Of a DNA stretch of 64,000 bases, positions 1,240 through 13,616 are shown piece after piece. Source of the stretch: Brevundimonas sp. AJA228-03 (GTDB taxonomy: Bacteria; Pseudomonadota; Alphaproteobacteria; Caulobacterales; Caulobacteraceae); assembly GCF_017795885.1 (NCBI RefSeq), contig NZ_CP059297.1, positions 868,001 to 932,000 on the forward strand, read 5' to 3'. The translations under genes were made by a program, and so were the position numbers. Every line of letters begins with the position of its first letter. Position 1 is the first letter of the stretch. Under the pieces are notes generated by a model. That model saw only the letters and a program-made list of their open reading frames with translations, made no database searches and had not been told where the DNA came from.

Positions 1240-3636
1240 ATGCGTGGATTCTTCCTGGCGGCGACAGGTCTTGTCGCGGCGCTCTCGGCCGGGATGGCGT
1301 CCGCCCAGGTCAGCGTCGGGCCCGTGCAACAGACGACCGGCACGTTCGAGGACAAGTTCCGTCAGTTCGAGGGCGAGGACTGGCCCAGCCCGACCGACTA
1401 TCGCAGCGCGTCGGGCGCGCCCGGCTTCCGCTACTGGCAGCAGAAGGTCGATTACGACATCGACGTCTCGCTGGATGAGCCGACCCGGACGCTGACGGGG
1501 ACCGAGACCGTCACCTACACCAACAACTCGCCCGACCGGCTGGGGTATCTGTGGCTGCTGCTGGATCAGCAGAACTATCGTCGGGCATCGATCGCCGAAC
1601 GCACCCGTACCGTCGGCGACGCGGCCACCGTCAGTGTCGGCGAGGTGCTGCGCGTCCAGCGATTCCAGGAGTGGGAGGGCGGGTTCAACGACCTGAAGAT
1701 CACCGGCCCGGACGGGCAGGACCTGACCTATACGATCACCGATACCCTGCTGCGGATCGACCTGCCGCAGACCCTGGGAACGGGCGAGAGCTTCACCTTT
1801 ACCATCCGCTTCACCCTGCCGCTGCCCGAGACGAATGTCGTCGGGGGCCGGTCGGGCTATGAGTGTTTCACCAAGGCCTGGGAGGACGGCAACTGCATCT
1901 TCCTGGCGGCCCAGTGGTTCCCGCGCCTGGCGGTCTATTCGGACTACGAGGGCTGGCATCAGGCCCAGTTCCTGGGGTCGGGCGAGTTCACCCTGGAGTT
2001 CGGCGACTACGACGTCTCGATCACCGCGCCGGCCGACCATGTCGTGGCCGCGACCGGCGAACTGGCCAACCCCGAGATCCTGAGCGAAGCGCAGCGGTCG
2101 CGTCTGGCCCAGGCCCGGACCGCCGACGAGCCCGTCTATATCGTCACGCCCGCCGAGGCCGCCGCAGCCGAGGCCTCGCCCGCGCGGTCGGGCACCCGCA
2201 CCTGGCATTTCGTCGCCGACAATGTGCGCGACTTTGGCTGGGCGGCCAGCCGCAAGTTCGTCTGGGACGCCCTGGGGGTCGAACAGGACTCAACCGAGCA
2301 CCCGGTCGTGATGGCCATGTCCTTCTATCCGAAGGAGGCCCGCCCGCTTTGGGACGCCTATTCCACCAAGGCCATCGCCCACACCCTGGACGTCTACAAC
2401 CAGTTCGCCCTGACCTATCCCTATCCCACCGCCCAGTCGGTCAACGGGCCGGTCGGTGGCATGGAATATCCGATGATCACCTTCAACGGGCCGCGGCCGG
2501 TGCGGGGGGACGACGGCTCTCTGACCTATACCGAGCGGGCCAAGACCGGGCTGATCGGGGTGGTGATCCACGAGGTCGGTCACACCTATTTCCCGATGAT
2601 CGTCAACTCCGACGAGCGCCAGTGGACATGGATGGACGAAGGGTTGAACAGCTTCCTGCAGTTCGAGGCGCAGAAGCTGTGGGATCCCGACTTCCCCTCG
2701 CGTGGCGAGCCCCGTGACATCGTCGAATACATGATCAGCCAGGACCAGGTGCCGGTCATGACCCAGTCCGACTCCCTGCTGCAGTTCGGCAACAACGCCT
2801 ATGCCAAGCCCGCGACGGCCCTGGTGATCCTGCGCGAGACCGTCATGGGCCGCGAGCTGTTCGACCGGGCGTTCCGCGAATACTCCCAGCGCTGGATGTT
2901 CAAACGCCCGACGCCGTTCGACTTTTTCCGCACCATGGAGGAGTCGTCGGGCATGGATCTGGACTGGTTCTGGCGCGGCTGGTTCTACACCACCGACCAT
3001 GTCGACATCGCGCTCGACAATGTGGTGCGCGTGAACCTGCAGTCGACCGACCCGGACGAGCGCGCCCGCGCCGACCGCGAACGCTTCCGGCAGCAGCCGG
3101 TCAGCCGCACCGCCGCCGTCAATCAGGAGGCCGGCATCCAGACGGTCATCGAGCGCGACAGCGGCGTGCTGGATTACTACGACGAGACCGACCAGTTCAC
3201 CGTTACCGCCACCCAGCGCAGGGATGCGGCCTCGGCCGCCGCCCGTGCCGATGCCGACCGCAGGCGCGCACAGGGTTTCCGCGACAACATCTATCGCCTG
3301 ACCTTCTCCAACGTCGGTGGTCTTGTCATGCCGGTGATCGTCAAGATGAATTTCGCGGACGGGACCAGCGAGACGGTCCGCATTCCGGCAGAGATCTGGC
3401 GCCGCAACAGCCAGCGCGTGGTCTGGCAGTACACCTCGTCCAGGACGCTGGTGTCTGCCGAGCTGGACCCCCTTTGGGAGACGGCGGACTCGGACCGGTC
3501 GAACAACAGCTTCCCGCAATCGATCGTGCCCTCGGTCGTGCCTCTGGCACCGGCCGGTCCCCAGGGCCAGAACCGGATGCGCGACGACGACCGCCGCGTC
3601 ACCCCCGACAGCCTGCGAACCCGACCCGCTTCCTGA
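1240..3636 (+). CDS. Secreted M1 family metallopeptidase
   Basis: About 798 residues starting with a Sec signal peptide (MRGFFLAATGLVAALSAGMASA, predicted cut before QVSVG), so periplasmic or secreted. Residues 444-448 are the zinc motif HEVGH, and E467 in WMDEGLNSF is the third zinc ligand at the HExxH-X18-E spacing of gluzincins. An N-terminal beta-domain of the M1 type precedes it and a C-terminal helical region follows. The family cleaves N-terminal residues from peptides. ATG 1240 is preferred over the in-frame TTG at 1234 because GAGG at 1229-1232 sits 7 bp upstream. The next gene starts on the last base of this stop codon (TGATG), so the pair is translationally coupled. Confidence 0.92.
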   Translation: MRGFFLAATGLVAALSAGMASAQVSVGPVQQTTGTFEDKFRQFEGEDWPSPTDYRSASGAPGFRYWQQKVDYDIDVSLDEPTRTLTGTETVTYTNNSPDRLGYLWLLLDQQNYRRASIAERTRTVGDAATVSVGEVLRVQRFQEWEGGFNDLKITGPDGQDLTYTITDTLLRIDLPQTLGTGESFTFTIRFTLPLPETNVVGGRSGYECFTKAWEDGNCIFLAAQWFPRLAVYSDYEGWHQAQFLGSGEFTLEFGDYDVSITAPADHVVAATGELANPEILSEAQRSRLAQARTADEPVYIVTPAEAAAAEASPARSGTRTWHFVADNVRDFGWAASRKFVWDALGVEQDSTEHPVVMAMSFYPKEARPLWDAYSTKAIAHTLDVYNQFALTYPYPTAQSVNGPVGGMEYPMITFNGPRPVRGDDGSLTYTERAKTGLIGVVIHEVGHTYFPMIVNSDERQWTWMDEGLNSFLQFEAQKLWDPDFPSRGEPRDIVEYMISQDQVPVMTQSDSLLQFGNNAYAKPATALVILRETVMGRELFDRAFREYSQRWMFKRPTPFDFFRTMEESSGMDLDWFWRGWFYTTDHVDIALDNVVRVNLQSTDPDERARADRERFRQQPVSRTAAVNQEAGIQTVIERDSGVLDYYDETDQFTVTATQRRDAASAAARADADRRRAQGFRDNIYRLTFSNVGGLVMPVIVKMNFADGTSETVRIPAEIWRRNSQRVVWQYTSSRTLVSAELDPLWETADSDRSNNSFPQSIVPSVVPLAPAGPQGQNRMRDDDRRVTPDSLRTRPAS

Positions 3637-4166
3637 TGGCCGGCGCGCGCTTCAGAATCGGACGGCGAGAGTTGCTGGGCGGGCTGATGCTCGTCTGTGG
3701 GCTGGTCGCCGGCCCCGCCCGGGCCCACCGAGGCCATGCCGGTCTGACGGTGGTGGAGATCAATGCCGCGAGCGGTGCCGTTCGGGTGACCCACCGTTTC
3801 TACGCTCACGACGTCGAGCCCGCCCTGGTCTCCATCGCGCCCGATGCCCAGCCGTCGCTGGATGATCCGCGCGCGGTCGCGGACCTGGAAGCCCATCTGG
3901 CGGCGCGATTCCGGCTGGAGATCGATGGCCGGGCGATCGACCTCACCCATGGCGAGACGGTCCTGGCCGGCGACACGGTGCGGGTCGGCTTTGCGGGCAC
4001 GAGCGAGGCGGAACCGGCCGTGCACGCGGTCACCGTCGACCTGGATTTCTTTCCTGGCGTCCATGACGACATGGAGCAGCAGGTGAATGTGCGCACCGGC
4101 GGCGTGACCCGCACGATCCTGTTCCGCCCCGGATCCGCAGCTCAGACGGTCCGCTTCGAGGGTTAA
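3636..4166 (+). CDS. DUF6702 family exported protein
   Basis: A 176-residue protein with an N-terminal export signal containing a twin arginine (GRRELLGGLMLVCG) and an AxA-type cut site near ARA-H, so probably periplasmic. The mature part is beta-rich and resembles the DUF6702 family (THRFYAHDVE near the start, and a long terminal VNVRTGGVTRTILF strand). Its function is unknown. The start codon shares a base with the M1 peptidase stop, implying co-expression and perhaps a shared periplasmic role. The family call rests on recalled similarity and needs a profile search. Confidence 0.7.
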   Translation: MAGARFRIGRRELLGGLMLVCGLVAGPARAHRGHAGLTVVEINAASGAVRVTHRFYAHDVEPALVSIAPDAQPSLDDPRAVADLEAHLAARFRLEIDGRAIDLTHGETVLAGDTVRVGFAGTSEAEPAVHAVTVDLDFFPGVHDDMEQQVNVRTGGVTRTILFRPGSAAQTVRFEG

Positions 4167-4241
4167 GGCTCTTCGACAGGGTCGAAATTGCCACGCCGGA
4201 GACCCAGGCTCCAGATTTTGGAAGTTTTTACCAGATTGCGG

Positions 4242-4270
4242 TTGTGCAACGCAGCGTTCTCTGACCTTAT
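4242..4270 (+). promoter_or_regulatory. Candidate promoter of the ilv-leu operon
   Basis: TTGTGC (4242-4247) and CCTTAT (4265-4270) are spaced 17 bp, just upstream of a strong ribosome binding site (AAGGAGG, 4281-4287). Start of transcription near 4277 would give a very short 5' end before the leader peptide, as in classic attenuators. Both hexamers are imperfect, so this is a weak call. Confidence 0.3.
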
Positions 4271-4293
4271 GTCCGGGTAGCAAGGAGGCGGCG

Positions 4294-4446
4294 ATGAGCC
4301 ACCCGACCCGTCACATCCCGATCCGTGCCGCCGCCCGTGCGGTCGCGGCCCCGCGCGCCAACGCCGCGCCTGCCGCCCTGACCACCCTTATTCTCAGCGT
4401 ACTCGTACTCCTGCTCTCCGGAGCGGCGTGGATGCAGCTGACCTGA
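4294..4446 (+). CDS. ilv-leu operon leader peptide
   Basis: A 50-codon reading frame with an excellent AAGGAGG site 6 bp upstream of its ATG. Codons 30-42 read TTLILSVLVLLLS: nine of the ten codons 32-41 are Leu, Ile or Val, preceded by two Thr codons. It uses codons uncommon in this genome (ctt, att, gta). Codons 12-28 are Ala/Arg/Pro rich. The stop at 4444-4446 lies 31 bp before the terminator stem and 100 bp before ilvD. This is the layout of a branched-chain amino acid attenuation peptide: ribosomes pausing at the Leu/Ile/Val run report amino acid shortage. The product itself is probably not functional. The short length and position would make automated pipelines miss it. Confidence 0.8.
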   Translation: MSHPTRHIPIRAAARAVAAPRANAAPAALTTLILSVLVLLLSGAAWMQLT

Positions 4447-4485
4447 AGCCGAGACAAATCAGGACCGCAAGCCTCCACCCGCTCC
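4420..4485 (+). promoter_or_regulatory. Antiterminator hairpin of the ilv-leu attenuator
   Basis: GGAGCGGcGTGG (4420-4431), inside the leader-peptide frame, pairs with CCACCCGCTCC (4475-4485) over 11 bp with one bulged base. The second arm overlaps the 5' arm of the terminator (4478-4483), so the two structures exclude each other. A ribosome reaching the leader stop at 4444 would cover the first arm and let the terminator form. A ribosome stalled at the Leu/Ile/Val run would leave it free. An earlier segment (4358-4370, containing CGCCGC) can pair with the first arm and may be the protector strand. Confidence 0.7.
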
Positions 4486-4505
4486 CGCCAGGAAGCGGGT
4501 TTTTT
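4478..4505 (+). terminator. Attenuator terminator before ilvD
   Basis: CCCGCT (4478-4483) pairs with AGCGGG (4494-4499), probably extended inward by one or two further pairs, and is followed directly by six T residues (4500-4505). It lies between the leader peptide and ilvD, so it would cut the operon transcript short when branched-chain amino acids are plentiful. Confidence 0.8.
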
Positions 4506-4546
4506 AATGCCCGACGCACGCCTCTCCTCCGGAACGCCCAACCTCG

Positions 4547-6286
4547 ATGACGCAAGATCTGACCTCTGATGACACGGCCCCGTCGCCCCGGCGACGCAGC
4601 GCCGTCGTGACCGCCGGAGCCAACCGCGCCGCGGCGCGCAGCTATCTGCGGGCCGCAGGCATGGACGATGCCGATTTCGAGAAGCCGATGATCGCGGTGG
4701 TCAACACCTGGTCGTCGGTGACGCCGTGCAACATGCATCTCGACCGTCTGGCCAGGGACGTCCGGGCCGGCATCATCGCGGCGGGCGGCTTCCCGATCGA
4801 CTTCAACACCATCGTCGTCACCGACGGCATCTCGATGGGCACGCCGGGCATGAAGGCCTCGCTGATCAGCCGGGAAGTCGTCGCCGACTCGATCGAGCTG
4901 GCGGTGCAGGGTCATCAGCTGGACGGCGTCGTCTGCATCGTCGGATGCGACAAGACGATACCGGCCGCCGCCATGGCCCTGGCTCGCATGGATATCCCCG
5001 GCCTGGTCTATTACGGCGGCACCATCATGCCGGGCCGGATCGGATCGGCCGAGATCTCGATCCAGGAGGTCTTCGAGGCCATCGGTGCCCACGGCGCCGG
5101 CGCCATCGACGACAACCAGCTGAAAATTGTCGAGAGCGCTGCCTGCCCGGGGGCCGGGGCCTGCGGGGGTCAGTTCACCGCCAACACCATGGCCATGGCC
5201 CTGTCGATGATGGGTCTGTCGCCGATGGGGGCCAACGACGTCCCCGCCGTCGACCCGGCCAAGGCGGCCGAGGGTGAACGCTGCGGCCGGCTGATCGTCG
5301 AGCGTGTCTTCGCCGGCGACACGGCCCGCAAATACATTACGCGCGCAAGCCTCAAGAATGCCGCCGTCGCCGTCTCGGCGTCCGGAGGATCCACCAATGC
5401 GGTCATGCACCTGACAGCCATCGCGACCGAGGCGGGCGTCGATTTCGGCATCGAGGACTGCCATCAGGCCTGCGTCGAGGCCCCCGTTATCTGCGATCTG
5501 AAACCGGGCGGCCGGTTTCTGGCCTCGCACCTGTATGCGGCGGGCGGCACCCGCCTGGTCGCCCAGCGGCTGGCGGCGGCGGGCAAGATCATCAACGCCC
5601 CGACCGTCTCGGGCCGCAGCCTGTTCGCCGAGGCCGCCGAGGCCGAGGAAGCGCCCGGCCAGCAGGTCGTGACCACGATCGATGCGCCGGTCATGGCGCG
5701 CGGCTCCTATGCCGTCATCCACGGCGATCTGGCTCCGGAGGGGGCGATCATCAAACTGGCAGGCCATGCCATCGACGTGTTCGAGGGCCCGGCCTGCGTG
5801 TTCGACTCGGAGGAAGACGCCTTCCATGCCGTTCAGGACGGTTCGGTCGGCGAGGGCGACGTCATCGTCATCCGTTACGAAGGTCCGCGCGGCGGCCCGG
5901 GCATGCGCGAGATGCTGCAGGTCACCGCCGCCCTGAAGGGCCGCGGCGTCCAGAATGTCGCCCTGCTGACCGACGGCCGGTTCTCGGGCGCCAGCTACGG
6001 CTTCGTCGCCGGCCATATCTCGCCGGAGGCGGCCGTGGGCGGTCCGATCGCCCTGGTCCGCGACGGCGACCGGATCACGATCGACGTCACCAACCGGCGC
6101 ATCGATGTGGCGGCGGATCTGGTCGCACGCCGTCGCGACCACACGACCCCGCCGCTGAAGCCCGCCACCGGGGTCTTCGCCAAATATCGCGCCGAGGTCG
6201 CCTCGGCCAGCCAGGGCGCCGTCACCATTCCCAACCCGCCGCCGGCCCAGGTGCCGGCGATCATCAATGCCCGTCAGGAAGCCTGA
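4547..6286 (+). CDS. ilvD: Dihydroxy-acid dehydratase
   Basis: 579 residues. The enzyme converts 2,3-dihydroxy-isovalerate and 2,3-dihydroxy-3-methylvalerate to the 2-keto acids in valine, isoleucine and leucine synthesis. The iron-sulfur ligand motifs of the IlvD/Edd family are present: VTPCNMH, VGCDKTIPA and CPGAGACGGQFTANTM. The conserved TDGRFSGASYGFVAGHISPEA stretch is near residue 490. Length fits the short IlvD type. It is the first structural gene of the operon, 41 bp after the attenuator T-run; ilvC follows after 3 bp. No frameshift or missing motif is seen. Confidence 0.97.
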   Translation: MTQDLTSDDTAPSPRRRSAVVTAGANRAAARSYLRAAGMDDADFEKPMIAVVNTWSSVTPCNMHLDRLARDVRAGIIAAGGFPIDFNTIVVTDGISMGTPGMKASLISREVVADSIELAVQGHQLDGVVCIVGCDKTIPAAAMALARMDIPGLVYYGGTIMPGRIGSAEISIQEVFEAIGAHGAGAIDDNQLKIVESAACPGAGACGGQFTANTMAMALSMMGLSPMGANDVPAVDPAKAAEGERCGRLIVERVFAGDTARKYITRASLKNAAVAVSASGGSTNAVMHLTAIATEAGVDFGIEDCHQACVEAPVICDLKPGGRFLASHLYAAGGTRLVAQRLAAAGKIINAPTVSGRSLFAEAAEAEEAPGQQVVTTIDAPVMARGSYAVIHGDLAPEGAIIKLAGHAIDVFEGPACVFDSEEDAFHAVQDGSVGEGDVIVIRYEGPRGGPGMREMLQVTAALKGRGVQNVALLTDGRFSGASYGFVAGHISPEAAVGGPIALVRDGDRITIDVTNRRIDVAADLVARRRDHTTPPLKPATGVFAKYRAEVASASQGAVTIPNPPPAQVPAIINARQEA

Positions 6287-6289
6287 GCC

Positions 6290-7300
6290 ATGCAAATCTA
6301 TACCAACGACGACATCCGTCCCGGCGTCATCGCGGGTCACCGCATCGCCATCATCGGCTATGGCTCTCAAGGGCGCGCCCATGCGCAGAACCTGAAGGAC
6401 TCGGGCCACGACGTGGTCGCCGGGGTCCGTCATGGCGGTAAGGGCTGGAAGAACGCCCAGGCCGATGGCGTCCCGACGGCGGAGCCCGCCGACGCGGTCA
6501 AGGGCGCGGATATAATCGCCATCCTGACGCCCGACATGGCCCAGGCGCAGATCTACAAGGACATCATCGAGCCCAACGCCAGGAAGGGCGCGGCCATCCT
6601 GTTCGCCCACGGCTTTTCGATCCTGTACGGACGCGTCACCCCGCGTGCCGACATGGATGTCATCCTGGTCGCGCCCAAGGGGCCGGGTGACCTGGTCCGT
6701 CGCGAATATGCACGCGGACGCGGCGTGCCCGCCCTGTTCGCGGTCGAGCAGGACGCCACCGGCAAGGCCCGCGACCGGGCCATGGGCTATGCCAGGGGCA
6801 TCGGCGGCGCGACCGGCGGCCTGCTGGAAACCTCGTTCAAGGAAGAGACCGAGACCGATCTGTTCGGCGAACAGGCCGTCCTGTGCGGCGGGGCCAAGGA
6901 GCTGGTCATGGGAGGGTTCACCACCCTGGTCGAGGCCGGCTACCAGCCCGAGATCGCCTATTTCGAATGCATGCACGAGCTGAAGCTGATCGTGGACCTG
7001 TTCTACGAGGGCGGCATCACCAAGATGAACGAATTTATCTCCGAGACCGCCAAATGGGGCTCGGTCGTCAGCGGCCCGCGCGTCATCAACGCCGAGACCC
7101 GCGCGCGGATGAAGGAGATCCTGACCGAGATCCAGGACGGCACCTTCGCCCGCGAGTGGATCGCCGAGAACGAGGCCGGCAAGGGGGCCTACGATGCTCT
7201 GGTCAAGGCCGACGGCGACCACCTGATCGAGTCGGTCGGCGCGGGTCTGCGCGAGCGCATGGCCTGGCTGCACGCCCCCAAGACCGCTGAAGCGGCCTGA
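6290..7300 (+). CDS. ilvC: Ketol-acid reductoisomerase (class I)
   Basis: 336 residues, the usual length of class I enzymes. It converts acetolactate or acetohydroxybutyrate to the dihydroxy acids with NADPH and Mg2+. The N-terminal Rossmann motif reads [19 protein letters not shown], and the knotted helical domain contains the Mg-binding acidic residues around [15 protein letters not shown] and the [12 protein letters not shown] motif. It begins 3 bp after the ilvD stop, so it is probably translated from the same ribosome stream. ilvB follows after 26 bp. Confidence 0.98.
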
Positions 7301-7326: not shown

Positions 7327-9048
7327 ATGACCGCCGCCACCGCCATGAAACCCGCGCCTGCCGCCGCTCCCCGGAGCGGTGCGCGGCTGCTCGTCTCGAC
7401 CCTGGAGCGGTTGGGCGTGGATGTTGTGTTCGGCTATCCGGGCGGCGCGATTATGCCGGTCTATGATGCCCTGACCGGGTCGGGCCTGAAGCACATCCTG
7501 GTCCGTCACGAGCAGGGCGCGGCCTTCGCCGCCGACGCCTGGGCCCGGGTGACCGGCAAGGTCGGGGTCTGCATGGCGACCTCGGGTCCGGGCGCCACCA
7601 ACCTGATCACCGGCATCGCCAATGCAATGATGGATTCGGTGCCGATGGTCTGCATCACCGGCAACGTCGCCACGCATCTGATGGGGACCGACGCCTTTCA
7701 GGAAATCGACATCCTGGGCGTCACCCTGCCGATCGTGAAGCACAGCTGGGTCGTCCGCGACCCGGCCGACGTTCCGGCCGTGATCGAGGAAGCCTTCCAT
7801 GTCGCGCGCTCGGGCCGCCCTGGCCCGGTCCTGGTCGATCTGCCGAAGGACGTGCAGGTCGGCCTGACCTCCGAGGATTTCGGCTTCCACTATCCGAACG
7901 AGACGACGCCTCTGGATCACGCGGCGATTGGCGAGGCCGAGCAGCTGATCCGCGCCGCAGAGCGCCCGCTGATCTACATCGGCGGCGGGGTCAAGATCGC
8001 CGGGGCCGTCCAGGCGTTGCGTGACTTCGCCGGGCAGACCGGCATCCCCTCGGTCTCGACCCTGAACGCCCTGGGGTCGGTCCGCACGGATGCCCCGGGC
8101 TTTCTGGGCATGCTGGGGATGCACGGGACGAAGGCAGCCAATGAGGCGGTGCAGGAAAGCGATCTGCTGATCGTCTTCGGGGCCCGGTTCGACGACCGCG
8201 CGACGGGCAAGCTGAATGAATTCGCCCCCCATGCGAAGGTCGTCCATTTCGACATCGACCCGGCCGAGATCGGCAAGCTGCGCGCCGCCCATGTTCCGGT
8301 CATCGGCGACCTGAAGGCCGGTATCGAGGCCCTGAATGCGCGTGTCGCCGCAGCGCCCCTGGCGATCGATCCCTGGATCGTCCACGCGACCTCGAACGCC
8401 CGCCGCAACGCCTTCCGCTACGACGCGCCCGGCGAGGGGGTCTATGCGCCGGCCCTGCTGAACGAACTGTCGAAGACGGCGGGCGACCGTTTCGTCGCGG
8501 CCTGCGACGTCGGCCAGCACCAGATGTGGGTCGCCCAGCACTGCGAATTCTCGCGGCCCGAGGCCCACCTGACCTCCGGCGGTCTGGGTGCGATGGGCTA
8601 CGGCCTGCCCGCCGGTCTGGGGGCCAAGATGGCCAACCCCGAAGCCCACGTCGTCACCGTCTCCGGCGACGGCAGCTTCATGATGAACATCCAGGAACTG
8701 GCGACCCTGCGCCGCTATGGCGTCGCGCTGAAGATCGTCCTGCTGGACAACTCCAGCCTCGGACTGGTGCGCCAGTGGCAGGAGCTGTTCTTCGCCGAGA
8801 ACTATTCAGAGGTCGATCTGTCGGACAATCCGGACTTCGTCGCCGTGGCCCAGGCCTTCGGCATCGAGGCCTTCATGATCGATCGCCGCGATCAGGTCAC
8901 TGACGGCATCGCCCGTCTGCTGGCCGCGCCCGGACCGTGCCTGATGCACGTCCTGATCGACCCCAGGGAAAACGTCTGGCCGCTGGTGCCTCCGGGCAAG
9001 TCCAACGCCGAGATGATGCACGACACGCGCTTTGAAGGAGACATGTGA
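7327..9048 (+). CDS. ilvB: Acetolactate synthase large (catalytic) subunit
   Basis: 573 residues with the three-domain fold of ThDP-dependent decarboxylases. The catalytic glutamate lies in LVRHEQGAAFAADAW near residue 60. The FAD/central domain follows, and the ThDP-Mg motif begins GDGSFMMNIQELATLRR and ends in NNSSLG-type sequence (read here as DNSSLGLVRQWQ). It condenses pyruvate with pyruvate or 2-ketobutyrate, the first common step of the pathway. The following gene encodes a short ACT subunit resembling enteric IlvM, so this catalytic subunit may correspond to IlvG. Its stop overlaps the next start by one base. Confidence 0.96.
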   Translation: MTAATAMKPAPAAAPRSGARLLVSTLERLGVDVVFGYPGGAIMPVYDALTGSGLKHILVRHEQGAAFAADAWARVTGKVGVCMATSGPGATNLITGIANAMMDSVPMVCITGNVATHLMGTDAFQEIDILGVTLPIVKHSWVVRDPADVPAVIEEAFHVARSGRPGPVLVDLPKDVQVGLTSEDFGFHYPNETTPLDHAAIGEAEQLIRAAERPLIYIGGGVKIAGAVQALRDFAGQTGIPSVSTLNALGSVRTDAPGFLGMLGMHGTKAANEAVQESDLLIVFGARFDDRATGKLNEFAPHAKVVHFDIDPAEIGKLRAAHVPVIGDLKAGIEALNARVAAAPLAIDPWIVHATSNARRNAFRYDAPGEGVYAPALLNELSKTAGDRFVAACDVGQHQMWVAQHCEFSRPEAHLTSGGLGAMGYGLPAGLGAKMANPEAHVVTVSGDGSFMMNIQELATLRRYGVALKIVLLDNSSLGLVRQWQELFFAENYSEVDLSDNPDFVAVAQAFGIEAFMIDRRDQVTDGIARLLAAPGPCLMHVLIDPRENVWPLVPPGKSNAEMMHDTRFEGDM

Positions 9049-9314
9049 TGACCGACACCCTCCAGATCCAGATCGACCGGGCCGACGGCTCGCTCCAGCG
9101 CCTCATCGGTCTCGTGGAACGTCGCGGCTTTCACATCGACGCCATGTCCCTGTCGGACGAGGGCGCAATGCGCCGCGTCCAGTTGCAGGTCCGCGGCCGC
9201 GAAGAAGGACGCTGCACCGAGAACCTGGGCCGCCAGATCGACAAGCTGATCGGTGCGACCCGGGTCGGTTATGCCCCCGCGCCCTACGCCTGTCGGGACA
9301 GTGTGGCGGCATGA
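9048..9314 (+). CDS. ilvM: Acetolactate synthase small subunit, short IlvM-like form
   Basis: An 88-residue protein made almost entirely of one ACT domain (LQIQIDRADGSLQRLIGLVERRGFHIDAMSL onward). Standard IlvH/IlvN regulatory subunits are about 160 residues or more and carry a second domain. The length here is that of enteric IlvM, whose holoenzyme is insensitive to valine. Start ATG 9048 overlaps the ilvB stop (TGATG); a GTG at 9045 would add one residue. The stop overlaps leuA by 4 bp (ATGA). The gene symbol is by size and architecture; ilvN would be an acceptable alternative name. Confidence 0.8.
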   Translation: MTDTLQIQIDRADGSLQRLIGLVERRGFHIDAMSLSDEGAMRRVQLQVRGREEGRCTENLGRQIDKLIGATRVGYAPAPYACRDSVAA

Positions 9315-10528
9315 CCTCCGAACCTCGAGTACCGGACGATCCCGACCGTGTAGTGGTCTTCGACACCACCATGCGCGATGGCGAACAGGCACCCGGCTTT
9401 TCCATGTCGCCCGCCGACAAGGTCAGGATGGGCCGCCAGCTGAAGGCGCTGGGCGTCGACATCATGGAGGCCGGGTTCGCCGCCGCCTCTCCGGGCGACG
9501 AGGACTGCATCCGTGCCGTCGTCGGCGAGATGGCCGAGGACGATTCGGGGCCGGTCTTCTGCTCCCTGTCCCGCTCCAGCGAGGCGGACATCGACGCCTC
9601 TTATCGCGCCCTGCGCGGGACCCGGCGTCGGCGATGCCACGTCTTCATCGGCACCAGCCCGATCCATCGTGCGGCCAAGCTGCGCATGACGCCGGATCAG
9701 GTCCTGGCCCAGGCCGTGCGTTCGGTCGAATACGCCCGGACGCATTTTCACGACGTCGAGTTCAGTGCCGAGGACGCGATCCGTACCGAGCCCGAGTTCC
9801 TGGCCGAGGTGCTGGAGGCGGTCTCGGCGGCGGGGGCCTCGACCCTGAACGTGCCCGATACGGTCGGCTATGCGACGCCGGACGAGATCGGTTCACTGTT
9901 CCGGTTCCTGATCGCGCGGATCAGGCCGCGCTTCCCGCACGTCGTGTTCTCGACCCACTGCCACAATGACCTGGGTCTGGCCGTCGCCAACAGTCTGGCG
10001 GCGATCGAGGGCGGGGTACGCCAGGTCGAATCGACCATCAACGGCATCGGCGAACGGGCCGGAAACGCGGCGCTGGAAGAGGTCGTCATGGCCCTGCGGA
10101 CCCGCGCCGAACGCTATGGCGTCACGACCGGCGTGGACGCGACCAGGCTGGTGGAGACCAGCCGCCTGCTGAGCGAAATCACCGAATCCCCGATCGTGCG
10201 CAACAAGGCCATCGTCGGCATCAACGCCTTCGCCCACGAGGCGGGCATCCACCAGCACGGCATGTATGCCGACGCCCGCACCTATGAGATCATGCGGCCC
10301 GAGGACGTGGGCTTTTCCGGCAGTTTCTTCGTGCTGGGCAAGCACTCGGGCCGAACGGCGGTTCAGAAGCGGGCCGAGGTTCTGGGCTATCCGCTGGTCG
10401 GCGATCACCTGACCGACGCTTTCGCCGCCTTCAAGGCGCGCGCCGACCAGATCGGCGAGATCGACGACCAGGAGTTGATCGCCATCTGCGTGGCGACGCA
10501 GAGAAATGCGGCCCATGTCGCCGCCTAG
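9311..10528 (+). CDS. leuA: 2-isopropylmalate synthase, short form without regulatory domain
   Basis: 405 residues. It condenses acetyl-CoA with 2-ketoisovalerate, the committed step of leucine synthesis. The TIM-barrel start [13 protein letters not shown] and the metal-binding [16 protein letters not shown] are intact, as are [19 protein letters not shown] and the flexible-region motif [10 protein letters not shown]. The protein ends at about the point where full-length LeuA (about 515 residues) would begin its C-terminal leucine-binding domain. A citramalate or homocitrate synthase is less likely because it lies directly between ilvM and leuCDB. ATG 9311 is chosen because it overlaps the ilvM stop; an upstream in-frame extension runs through ilvM. 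Confidence 0.9.
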
Positions 10529-11933
10529 GACCTTGTTCGACAAGGTCTGGGACCGCCACGTCGTCGTCCCGGAAACGGCGGAGACGCCGGGTGTCCTCTA
10601 CATCGACCTGCATCTGGTCCATGAGGTAACCAGCCCCCAGGCCTTCACCGAGATCGAGGCGCGGGGTCTGAAGGTCCGTCGTCCGGACAAGACCTTTGCG
10701 ACGCTCGACCATTCGACCCCGACCCTGCCGGCGGGGCTGAATGGCCTCAAGCCCTATGTCACGGCCGAGGCCGAGGCCCAGGTGCATCGGCTGGAAGAGA
10801 ACTGTGCCCGACATGGCATCGACCTGGCCGGCTGGGCGTCGCCGGATCGGGGCGTGGTCCATGTGATGGGTCCCGAACTGGGTCTGACCCAGCCGGGCAT
10901 GACCGTCGTCTGCGGCGACAGCCATACGGCCACCCACGGGGCCTTCGGAGCCCTGGCCTTCGGTATCGGCACCTCGGAGGTCGGTCATGTGCTGGCGACC
11001 CAGTGCCTGTTGCAAAGGAAGTCGAAGGCGATGCGCGTGACCGTCACCGGTCATCTGGTGCCGGGCGTGTCGGGCAAGGACGTCGCGCTGGCTGTGATCG
11101 CTGAACTGGGCTTCGGCGGCGGCACCGGCTTCGTCATTGAATATGCAGGCGACGCCGTGCGGTCGCTGGACATGGAAGGGCGGATGACCCTGTGCAACAT
11201 GTCAATCGAGGCCGGTGCGCGGGCGGGGATGATCGCCCCGGATGCCAAAACCATCGACTGGCTGCGCGGGCGCAAGCACGTGCCGCAGGGCCAGGCCTAT
11301 GACGTCAGGGCGGCCGAATGGTTGACCCTGGCATCCGATCCGGATGCCGTGTTCGACGCCGAGGTCGTTATCGATGGCACCGCGATCCGCCCCATGGCGA
11401 CCTGGGGCACGACGCCGGACGCGGGGTCTCCGATCGGCACCCGCGTGCCAGAGCCGAAGTCGGATAGCGACCGCAAGGCCCTGGCCTATATGGGCTTCGA
11501 GGCGGGCGAGACGACGACGACCCAGGCCGTGGACGTGGTCTTCATCGGCTCTTGCACCAATGGGCGGTTGCCAGATCTGCGGGCGGCGGCGGCTGTGTTG
11601 CGCGGGCGAAAGGTGAAGTCCGGGGTGCGCATGCTGGTCGTGCCGGGGTCGGAGGCCGTGCGTCGTGACGCCGAGGCGGAAGGGTTGCACACCGTCTTCA
11701 CCGAGGCGGGTGCCGAGTGGCGCATCCCGGGCTGTTCGATGTGCATCGCCATGAACGGAGATTTCGTTGCGCCCGGCCAGCTGGCCGTCTCGACCTCCAA
11801 TCGCAACTTCGAAGGCCGCCAGGGCAAGGGGGCCCGCACCATCCTGGCCAGTCCGGCGACAGCAGCGGCCTCGGCCATCGCCGGGGTGCTGACCGATCCG
11901 CGGGTGTATCTGGGGGAGACGGTCGATGCCTGA
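10515..11933 (+). CDS. leuC: 3-isopropylmalate dehydratase large subunit
   Basis: About 472 residues. With LeuD it isomerises 2-isopropylmalate to 3-isopropylmalate using a 4Fe-4S cluster. The family start [12 protein letters not shown], the substrate region [30 protein letters not shown] and the cluster ligands in [18 protein letters not shown] and [10 protein letters not shown] are all present. Two in-frame starts exist, 10506 and 10515. I prefer 10515 ([10 protein letters not shown]), which overlaps leuA by 14 bp. It overlaps leuD by 8 bp. Confidence 0.95.
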
Positions 11934-12516
11934 ACCCCTCAAGGTCCTGACCTCGCGCACACTCGTCCTGACCCAGGCCAATATCGATACCGACCAGATC
12001 ATCCCGGCGCGGTTCCTGACCACGACCGGGACAACGGGTCTGGGCCAGAAGGCCTTCTACGACTGGCGCTACGAGGCCGACGGCTCGGCGCGGCCGGAAG
12101 CGGTGCTGAACCGTATCGATCCGACCGAGCATCGCATCCTGGTGGCCGGCGACAATTTCGGCTGCGGCTCGTCGCGCGAGCACGCGCCCTGGGCGCTCCA
12201 CGACTACGGGTTCCGGGCGGTGATCTCGACCTCGATCGCCGACATCTTCACCTCCAACGCATTGAAGAACGGCTTCCTGCCCGTCGTCGTCGATCAGGCG
12301 ACGTGGGAAGACCTGGTCGCCCATCCCGAACAGGTGGTGACTATCGACCTGGAGGCCGGAGAGGTCCGTCGCGGCAACCATGCGCCGGTCGCCTTCGCGG
12401 TCGAGCCCTTCGCGCGCCAGTGCCTGCTGGACGGCGTCGACACGCTCGGCTGGCTGCAGAAGGCCATGCCCGCCATCGAACACTACGAACAAGTCCACTT
12501 CCCGGAGCCCGCGTGA
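11926..12516 (+). CDS. leuD: 3-isopropylmalate dehydratase small subunit
   Basis: 196 residues, the normal length. The swivelling domain of isopropylmalate isomerase is recognised by [13 protein letters not shown] near the start, [21 protein letters not shown] near residue 70, and the [17 protein letters not shown] stretch. It acts as a heterodimer with LeuC. The start lies within the leuC 3' end, and its stop shares one base with the leuB start (TGATG), so leuCDB are tightly coupled. Confidence 0.97.
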
Positions 12517-13616
12517 TGTCCAGTCCCCAGACCTATACCATCGTCCTGCTGCCCGGCGATGGCGTGGGGCCGGAAGTCATCGCGGCGGCGCGGGATGTGC
12601 TGCGGGTCATCGCCGACTTCTATGGCCACCGGTTCGCGTTCTCCGAGCACCTGATCGGTGGCGCCGGCATCGACGCGACCGGCGATCCCCTGCCGCCGGA
12701 GACCACCGCTGCCTGCCTCGCGGCCGACGGCGTGCTGCTGGGTGCGGTTGGCGGGCCCAGGTGGGACGGCGGTACGCGCCGTCCGGAAGAAGGCCTGCTG
12801 GGCATCCGCAAGGCCATGGGCCTGTTCGCCAATCTGCGCCCGCTGCAGGTCTCGCCTGTCCTGGCCCACCGCTCGCCCCTGAAGAAGGAGATCGTCGAAG
12901 GCGTCGACCTGATCGTCTTCCGCGAACTGACCGGCGGGGTCTATTTCGGCGAGAAGACCCGCACCGACACCATGGCCTCGGACCTGTGCATCTACACTGT
13001 GCCCGAGATCGAGCGGATCACCCGCGCGGCCTTCAAGACCGCCCTGCAACGGCGTGGCAAGGTGACCTCGGTCGACAAGGCCAATGTCATGGCGACGTCC
13101 AGGCTCTGGCGAGAGGTCGTCACCCGCATCCACGCCGAGGAGTTTCCGCAGGTCCAGCTGGAGCACGCCCTGGTCGACTCCATGGCGATGCATCTGATCC
13201 GCAAGCCGCGCGACTATGACGTCATCCTGACGGAGAACATGTTCGGAGACATCCTGTCGGACGAGATCAGCGTCCTGGGGGGATCAATCGGTCTGTTGCC
13301 CTCGGCGTCGCTCGGCGAATCAGGCCCGGGCCTGTTCGAGCCGATCCATGGATCCGCCCCCGACATCGCGGGACAGGATCTGGCCAATCCGGTCGGCACC
13401 ATCCTGTCGGCGGCGATGATGCTGCGTCACAGCCTCGACCTGGAGGACGAGGCCGCGTCGATCGAGGCGGCGGTCGCGGCGGTGCTGGCGGCCGGGGCCA
13501 CAACGGCCGACCTGGGGGGCGCCCTCGGCACGCGCGCTGCCGGCGAGGCCATCATCGACGCTATCCGCGCCATTCACTGGGCCGCGGCGCACCGTGTCCA
13601 GATGCACTGGGGTTAA
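12516..13616 (+). CDS. leuB: 3-isopropylmalate dehydrogenase
   Basis: 366 residues. It oxidises and decarboxylates 3-isopropylmalate with NAD+ to the leucine keto acid precursor. Family motifs include ILLPGDGVGPEV-type start (VLLPGDGVGPEVIAAAR), RELTGGVYFGEKTR, KANVMATSRLWREV, the metal-binding ENMFGDILSDE and NAD-binding HGSAPDIAGQDLANPVGTI. ATG 12516 overlaps the leuD stop; a much longer in-frame extension is a shadow of leuD. It is the last gene of the operon. I see no clear terminator in the 190 bp that follow. Confidence 0.97.
   Translation: MSSPQTYTIVLLPGDGVGPEVIAAARDVLRVIADFYGHRFAFSEHLIGGAGIDATGDPLPPETTAACLAADGVLLGAVGGPRWDGGTRRPEEGLLGIRKAMGLFANLRPLQVSPVLAHRSPLKKEIVEGVDLIVFRELTGGVYFGEKTRTDTMASDLCIYTVPEIERITRAAFKTALQRRGKVTSVDKANVMATSRLWREVVTRIHAEEFPQVQLEHALVDSMAMHLIRKPRDYDVILTENMFGDILSDEISVLGGSIGLLPSASLGESGPGLFEPIHGSAPDIAGQDLANPVGTILSAAMMLRHSLDLEDEAASIEAAVAAVLAAGATTADLGGALGTRAAGEAIIDAIRAIHWAAAHRVQMHWG

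Follow-up and report, generated by a model that had tools for sequence, protein, structure and literature searches.

The ilv-leu operon of Brevundimonas sp. AJA228-03 is very probably controlled, over its whole length, by a ribosome-mediated transcription attenuator of the trp/ilv/leu type, to judge from its sequence. The window (the whole stretch of 64,000 nucleotides that was analysed) comes from a genome of 3.04 Mb in a single contig, and all features described here lie on its plus strand unless another locus is named. A preliminary description had read the region before ilvD as a ribosome-mediated attenuator, and that reading is strengthened by the conservation of the codon run, of the pairing arms and of sequence blocks further upstream. 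The leader, its codon run, the alternative arms, the terminator, the operon and their conservation can be read directly from the sequence and its comparison with relatives.

Attenuators of the trp type are recognized by a translatable leader reading frame with a ribosome binding site, a cluster of codons for the amino acids that the operon produces, an antiterminator that excludes the terminator, and an intrinsic terminator before the first gene. A 1:2 protector hairpin also belongs to the class, and readthrough in such systems rises when those amino acids run short, provided that the leader is translated. The leader peptide gene (4294..4446) is an open reading frame of 50 codons plus TGA that encodes MSHPTRHIPIRAAARAVAAPRANAAPAALTTLILSVLVLLLSGAAWMQLT; it was found where it had been described, before ilvD, between an upstream reading frame that ends at 4166 and the ilvD start at 4547. 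Its ribosome binding site is AAGGAGG (4282-4288), and a GGAG stands before ATG or GTG in most aligned relatives. The codon cluster, which is kept in the genus, occupies codons 32-41; these translate as L I L S V L V L L L, with Leu, Ile or Val at nine of the ten positions as had been counted, and the control codons 32-38 (4387..4407) are CTT ATT CTC AGC GTA CTC GTA.

Beyond the control codons, the RNA can form a 1:2 hairpin (4411..4426) in which CUGCUC (4411-4416) pairs with GAGCGG (4421-4426) across a loop of four bases. This hairpin, which rests on pairing conservation over 74 sequences, was absent from the preliminary description; its arm 1 lies within the leader's own Leu run, and with it the 1:2, 2:3 and 3:4 arms are all present. 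The 2:3 antiterminator (4420..4485), seen on folding the window sequence and nascent RNA, pairs 4420-4426 and 4428-4432 with 4474-4485. It lies within a base or two of where it had been placed, and has 12 pairs rather than the 11 first counted, with C4427 bulged. The 3:4 structure (4477..4505), supported by folding and by pairing conservation, is the overlapping intrinsic terminator previously described before the first gene, in which 4477-4483 pair with 4494-4500 together with an inner CC/GG, and the U tract corresponds to six T at 4500-4505. Antiterminator and terminator overlap in that both use 4477-4483. A second pairing that had not been described, CCUGA (4442-4446, containing the stop codon) with UCAGG (4459-4463), forms an apex (4442..4463) inside the antiterminator.

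From these features we infer translation of the leader, ribosome stalling, termination and the physiological signal as follows. RNA polymerase would make the leader while a ribosome translates the same RNA. A shortage of charged Leu, Val or Ile tRNA would stall the ribosome at codons 32-38, no further than arm 1 (4411-4416), and, on a geometry based on the size of the ribosome footprint, would leave arm 2 (4420-4432) free. Arm 3 (4474-4485) could then capture the free arm 2 ahead of the synthesis of arm 4, and with no terminator able to form, the genes from ilvD to leuB would be transcribed. When charged tRNA is plentiful, the ribosome would reach the stop codon (4444-4446) and cover arm 2, leaving arms 3 and 4 to build the terminator. 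Arm 2 may be kept closed with the help of the conserved 1:2 hairpin.

The segment 4410-4510 folds at -43.6 kcal/mol (z -3.5), a stability equalled by one of 200 dinucleotide shuffles. Equilibrium folding of the whole leader was tried as proof of the switch and set aside: the terminator is in the best structure, and the stability of 4277-4510 is not unusual (z -1.32; 22 of 200 shuffles as good), so this fold alone does not demonstrate switching. Switch folding in the window used sub-segments, which is equivalent to the masked fold that the preliminary description had proposed. Across the 74 distinct genus sequences, a nascent RNA cut before arm 4 with arm 1 masked reaches a 2:3 pairing probability of more than 0.5 in 73 cases and averages 0.955. 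The average is 0.952 when arm 1 is left free, and since freeing arm 1 leaves the 2:3 pairing unlowered, folding lends no support to a blocking of the antiterminator by the 1:2 hairpin, which before arm 3 is made has a probability above 0.5 in 37 of 74. At equilibrium (30 C), full-length RNA in the stalled state, with arm 1 masked, shows the antiterminator excluding the terminator in 43 of 74 sequences (terminator probability below 0.5; 0.02 in the window's genome), and the terminator is still favoured, at a probability of at least 0.5, in 31. A ribosome at the stop codon gives a mean terminator probability of 0.905 (0.85 in the window's genome); passage from the stalled to the at-stop state brings no terminator gain in 21 of 74. 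When arm 1 is free and no ribosome is present, the terminator exceeds 0.5 in 35 of 74 (0.01 in the window's genome), and the corresponding values for the whole leader are 29 of 74 and 0.85. Because the equilibrium and arm-1-free folds switch incompletely, the attenuator model leans on ribosome position and the order of synthesis, which in these calculations we read as mainly setting the switch.

With regard to the genus, ilvD was found at 80% identity or more in 89 of 131 Brevundimonas genomes, and 87 of the 89 upstream regions were examined, the other two being a contig that starts inside the gene and a masked stretch. One of the 87 is wholly masked and one partly, which leaves a readable set of 85. 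A Leu/Ile/Val-rich leader and a terminator are present in all 85, in a search that demanded a terminator with the same core motif and hence was not blind. The runs hold 8-11 Leu, Ile or Val among 14 codons, and 27-32 bases separate the leader stop from the terminator. The preliminary description had named loss of the run or of the paired arms in relatives as grounds for abandoning the attenuator; the run is kept in every readable region, and the arms are kept too, with some compensating changes.

Pairing was measured on an alignment of 74 distinct sequences, after removal of duplicates and of the partly masked region; neither cells nor sequences count as independent events. Of the 444 cells of the 1:2 helix 96.4% are paired, against 41-66% in slid controls. 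The helix closes with C-G, U-A or U-G in 72 of 74 sequences, and its second pair changes from U-G to C-G in 14, where codon 40 becomes Pro CCG in place of Leu CTG; arm 1 pairing is thus retained despite the change of residue. The terminator 3:4 is paired in 96.7% of 517 cells (slid controls 42-57%), with an outer pair that is C-G in 40 sequences and A-U in 32. For the antiterminator 2:3, 75.1% of 887 cells are paired in the window's register, and in about half the sequences an additional C in arm 3 seems to displace its inner part by one base. In the apex, 88.4% of 370 cells are paired and there is no covariation. Covariation is carried by few columns, and two of five measures, the count of pairs changed on both sides and that of additional pair types, do not rise above shuffles for 1:2, 2:3 or 3:4.

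As a separate observation, no ilvD was found at E up to 1e-100 in 42 of the 131 Brevundimonas genomes, several of which are essentially complete, and a covariance model of the genus leader has no match in the 17 of them that were listed; such genomes may have lost branched-chain amino acid synthesis.

Upstream of the leader lies a promoter-like region (4242..4271) composed of TTGTGC (4242-4247) and CTTATG (4266-4271), recognized as blocks conserved in most aligned members; most of 22 aligned members of the genus have TTGTGC and a TATG-type block ahead of the leader. Because a scan for the sigma-70 consensus found nothing before the leader, the promoter at 4242-4271 is one that we infer. The ribosome binding site, the start codon and these promoter-like blocks are kept in most of 43 aligned genus sequences, and a transcription start downstream of 4505, which the preliminary description had said would refute the attenuator, is for that reason unlikely. 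The arrangement suggests that transcription starts before the leader and that initiation is under further control. The alignment also revealed a possible operator at 4218..4234, an imperfect dyad of the TTGGAA-N5-TTCCA type (with TACCA as the right half in the window). The dyad is kept upstream of the promoter-like block in most of the 22 aligned members, and most of a second set of 21 carry a different one, GCAAAATTTTTGC; 4218-4234 may be bound by a regulator, one that has changed in the genus.

The same stretch bears on an account in which the terminator only ends the upstream gene (ORF 3474-4166), ilvD has a promoter downstream of it and the leader frame is incidental. The upstream gene is co-oriented and ends about 310 bases before the terminator, and the result of the promoter scan before the leader favours this account; however, only 41 bases separate the T run from ilvD, and the leader frame, ribosome binding site, start codon, codon bias and mutually exclusive arms are all conserved in the genus, needless as they would be for a simple terminator. 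This account is very unlikely. Alternative folds and a terminator would also suit a regulatory RNA that no ribosome reads, whether a T-box, a riboswitch or a protein-bound leader. Against this stand the Rfam search, in which no family reached its gathering cut-off anywhere in the window, and the nature of the most constrained features, which include the reading frame, the Leu/Ile/Val residues and the last codon and stop (ACC-TGA in 74 of 74 distinct genus sequences), and control of this kind is extremely improbable.

A function for the leader as a small hydrophobic protein, with regulation secondary, might be suggested by a hydrophobic stretch of about 20 residues that resembles a membrane segment and by a conserved C-terminal end of the AAWM type, yet the N-terminal half is more variable, the C-terminal part is conserved where arm 2 lies, and codon use in the run reverses the ordinary coding bias, so that such a function can hardly be credited.

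Against the background of 39 window CDS (16,781 codons), att, ctt and gta are uncommon, as had been noted: att is 6.4% of the Ile codons, ctt 4.2% of the Leu codons and gta 1.6% of the Val codons. CTC and CTT together account for 16.7% of Leu codons and CTG for 78.9%. At codons 32-38 of the 74 leaders, GTA supplies 86.5% of 89 Val codons, ATT 93.8% of 81 Ile codons, and CTC plus CTT 98.2% of 272 Leu codons, with CTG at 1.5%; codon 36 is GTA in 68 of the 74. Upstream of the run in the same frame, CTG is 92% of 103 Leu codons, so the skew is confined to the run. Its conservation over 74 distinct leaders makes it stronger than the preliminary description could know, and, as suggested there, it might sharpen the response.

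In the genome 41 distinct tRNAs were found at 42 places, none of them a tRNA-Ile, with single genes for tRNA-Leu(GAG), tRNA-Leu(CAG) and tRNA-Val(TAC). The Leu and Val bias fits isoacceptor choice. ATT and ATC should share one tRNA, so tRNA choice would leave the Ile bias unexplained, and isoacceptor choice was rejected as a full account of the codon bias; slow decoding or avoidance of RNA pairing might account for the Ile codons. PMC1183508 gives rare codons as the first proposed reason for leader codon bias, now an oversimplification, and explains the bias of Escherichia coli leaders by selective charging of isoacceptors.

The operon itself, which the preliminary description had put at eight genes for valine, isoleucine and leucine, follows the attenuator directly in the order ilvD-ilvC-ilvG-ilvM-leuA-leuC-leuD-leuB. 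Seven genes were identified by NCBIfam or Pfam: ilvD (4547..6286; NF002068, 687.8 bits), ilvC (6290..7300), ilvG for an AHAS II-type large subunit (7327..9048; NF006524, 882.1 bits, cut-off 738), an ilvM-like gene for a small subunit of 88 amino acids (9048..9314; ACT_5, 63.2 bits, under the NCBIfam cut-offs), leuA (9311..10528), leuC (10506..11933) and leuD (11926..12516). The eighth, leuB (12516..13616), was identified as a reading frame with 60-62% identity to four relatives by tblastn.

The LeuA of the operon, at 405 amino acids, lacks the C-terminal extension of its full-length relatives and contains only HMGL-like and HCS_D2 domains. The missing part is what we take to be the regulatory domain that binds leucine, and a search of the genome at E up to 1e-30 found no further LeuA. 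Valine does not inhibit AHAS II, and another AHAS-like protein, encoded elsewhere in the genome, shares only 31% identity. Because the sole LeuA found lacks its C-terminal part, the leader may hold most of the leucine control and, on this sequence evidence, may be its main site here. LeuA was matched in 44 of 45 genomes searched. Among the 30 genomes with LeuA loci listed, 15 (11 Brevundimonas and 4 others) have proteins that end within 20 residues of the matched catalytic part, and those of the other 15 continue for 128-142 more. A single origin of the short form is likely for Brevundimonas and three Hyphomonadaceae-like MAGs (clade support 100/100; OFTM99 apart). A comparison of ilvD identity across lineages did not decide between a vertical and a transferred operon. 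One Brevundimonas genome that is 99% complete (G034) has the ilvD leader and no LeuA match at E up to 1e-30, and may have lost the leucine half of the operon.

Attenuators of enteric ilv and leu operons have a leader peptide with Leu/Val/Ile codons and alternative 1:2, 2:3 and 3:4 arms. Caulobacter crescentus belongs to the same bacterial family as Brevundimonas, and an attenuator of its ilvBN genes was reportedly described by Tarleton in 1994. The enteric ilvGMEDA and leu attenuators, both listed in PMC1183508, resemble the Brevundimonas element in their Leu/Val/Ile leader, in the same set of arms and in the ilv or leu genes downstream, and the leu leader also in its rare control codons; unlike them, the Brevundimonas leader precedes all three pathways together (ilvDCGM and leuACDB), and its sequence and lineage are different. 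The Caulobacter ilvBN leader is similar in carrying tandem Ile and Val codons in front of genes for acetolactate synthase (PMC4117421), whereas the first gene in Brevundimonas is ilvD. The three-hairpin attenuator of Corynebacterium glutamicum ilvBNC (terminator, antiterminator and anti-antiterminator; PMC11857589) shares the overlapping terminator and antiterminator before branched-chain amino acid genes; it belongs to an actinobacterium and another operon, and the likeness carries no claim of homology.

Full-text literature searches, mostly of papers outside subscription journals, returned no paper on a Brevundimonas ilv attenuator and none on a leader peptide with leucine attenuation before ilvD in alphaproteobacteria. 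The element appears to be a functional attenuator of a classical, already known kind, and its codon signature is striking. For the genus, and probably for several further lineages, it provides a definite switch governing all three branched-chain amino acids, and none of the Rfam families matched it here. That minor codons are so strictly conserved in a strongly codon-biased genome makes leader codon choice testable across many natural leaders, and the short LeuA offers a case in which attenuation may replace enzyme feedback.

Leaders outside the genus were sought among related ilvD loci in genome contigs; the best 80 of 587 were taken, and 77 had upstream regions long enough to test. A leader-plus-terminator scan matched 38 of these 77, 11 of them in Brevundimonas and 27 among the 66 outside the genus, with one match in 770 shuffles, one in 77 reverse complements and none in 231 stretches inside ilvD. 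Matches include Maricaulis, Hyphomonadaceae, Parvularculaceae, Algimonas, Lysobacter, a Myxococcales MAG and Acidobacteria MAGs, the last with a Val run (VVVVRSVGVVITPAASG) and another terminator sequence. In three Acidobacteria MAGs (L201, L184 and L203), ilvD is preceded by a leader rich in Val and by a terminator whose arms resemble GGCCATCATC/GATGATGGCC; this looks like a separate attenuator family. In the 13 loci where leuC-leuD-leuB precede ilvD, for example in Dyella and Luteibacter, no leader was found immediately ahead of ilvD. For 44 of the 69 non-genus loci among the best 80 of 587, the genus covariance model falls just upstream of ilvD in 19 (E up to 0.01). The distant leaders possibly arose by convergence.

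The idea that LeuA shortening and the attenuator are always paired fails one way, in that 11 of the 15 long-LeuA loci also match the leader scan. A broader scenario, which is tentative and towards which we do not lean, holds that leucine control moved from enzyme to leader in Brevundimonas and close Hyphomonadaceae. There, beside a short LeuA and an AHAS of type II, an attenuator tuned by conserved minor codons read by single tRNA-Leu(GAG) and tRNA-Val(TAC) genes would be the main sensor for the whole pathway, and homologous or parallel leaders would reach Lysobacter, Myxococcales and Acidobacteria as a widely travelled ilv-leu module.

The covariance model matched 70 genomes, 42 of them outside the genus, and the regions of 15 of the 42 were inspected. 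As a route to the Caulobacter ilvBN leader the model was given up: 12 of the 15 regions carry or resemble a Met/Ile/Thr-rich leader, two of the remainder precede ilv genes and one is of neither clear type. Four weaker second matches inside the genus show no clear leader. The Met/Ile/Thr-rich leader of sister Caulobacteraceae genera (loci L228, L232, L241, L242, L243 and others), such as KTMMMIIIPITGTGRTRAT, has the same kind of terminator and is probably another attenuator. It precedes one or two small reading frames in the five loci inspected; of four such frames scanned, one gave a weak ACT_5 match and three none. In another genus of the same family (L239), a Leu/Val/Ile leader precedes a reading frame of 187 amino acids that holds only the C-terminal domain of IlvD (ILV_EDD_C, 130 bits) and is followed by an ilvC-like frame and a TPP enzyme, a split or reduced dehydratase. 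In a Sphingomonas MAG (L160, 2639-2737, minus strand), a covariance-model match (E 1.9e-4) lies upstream of a divergent ilvC-ilvG pair.
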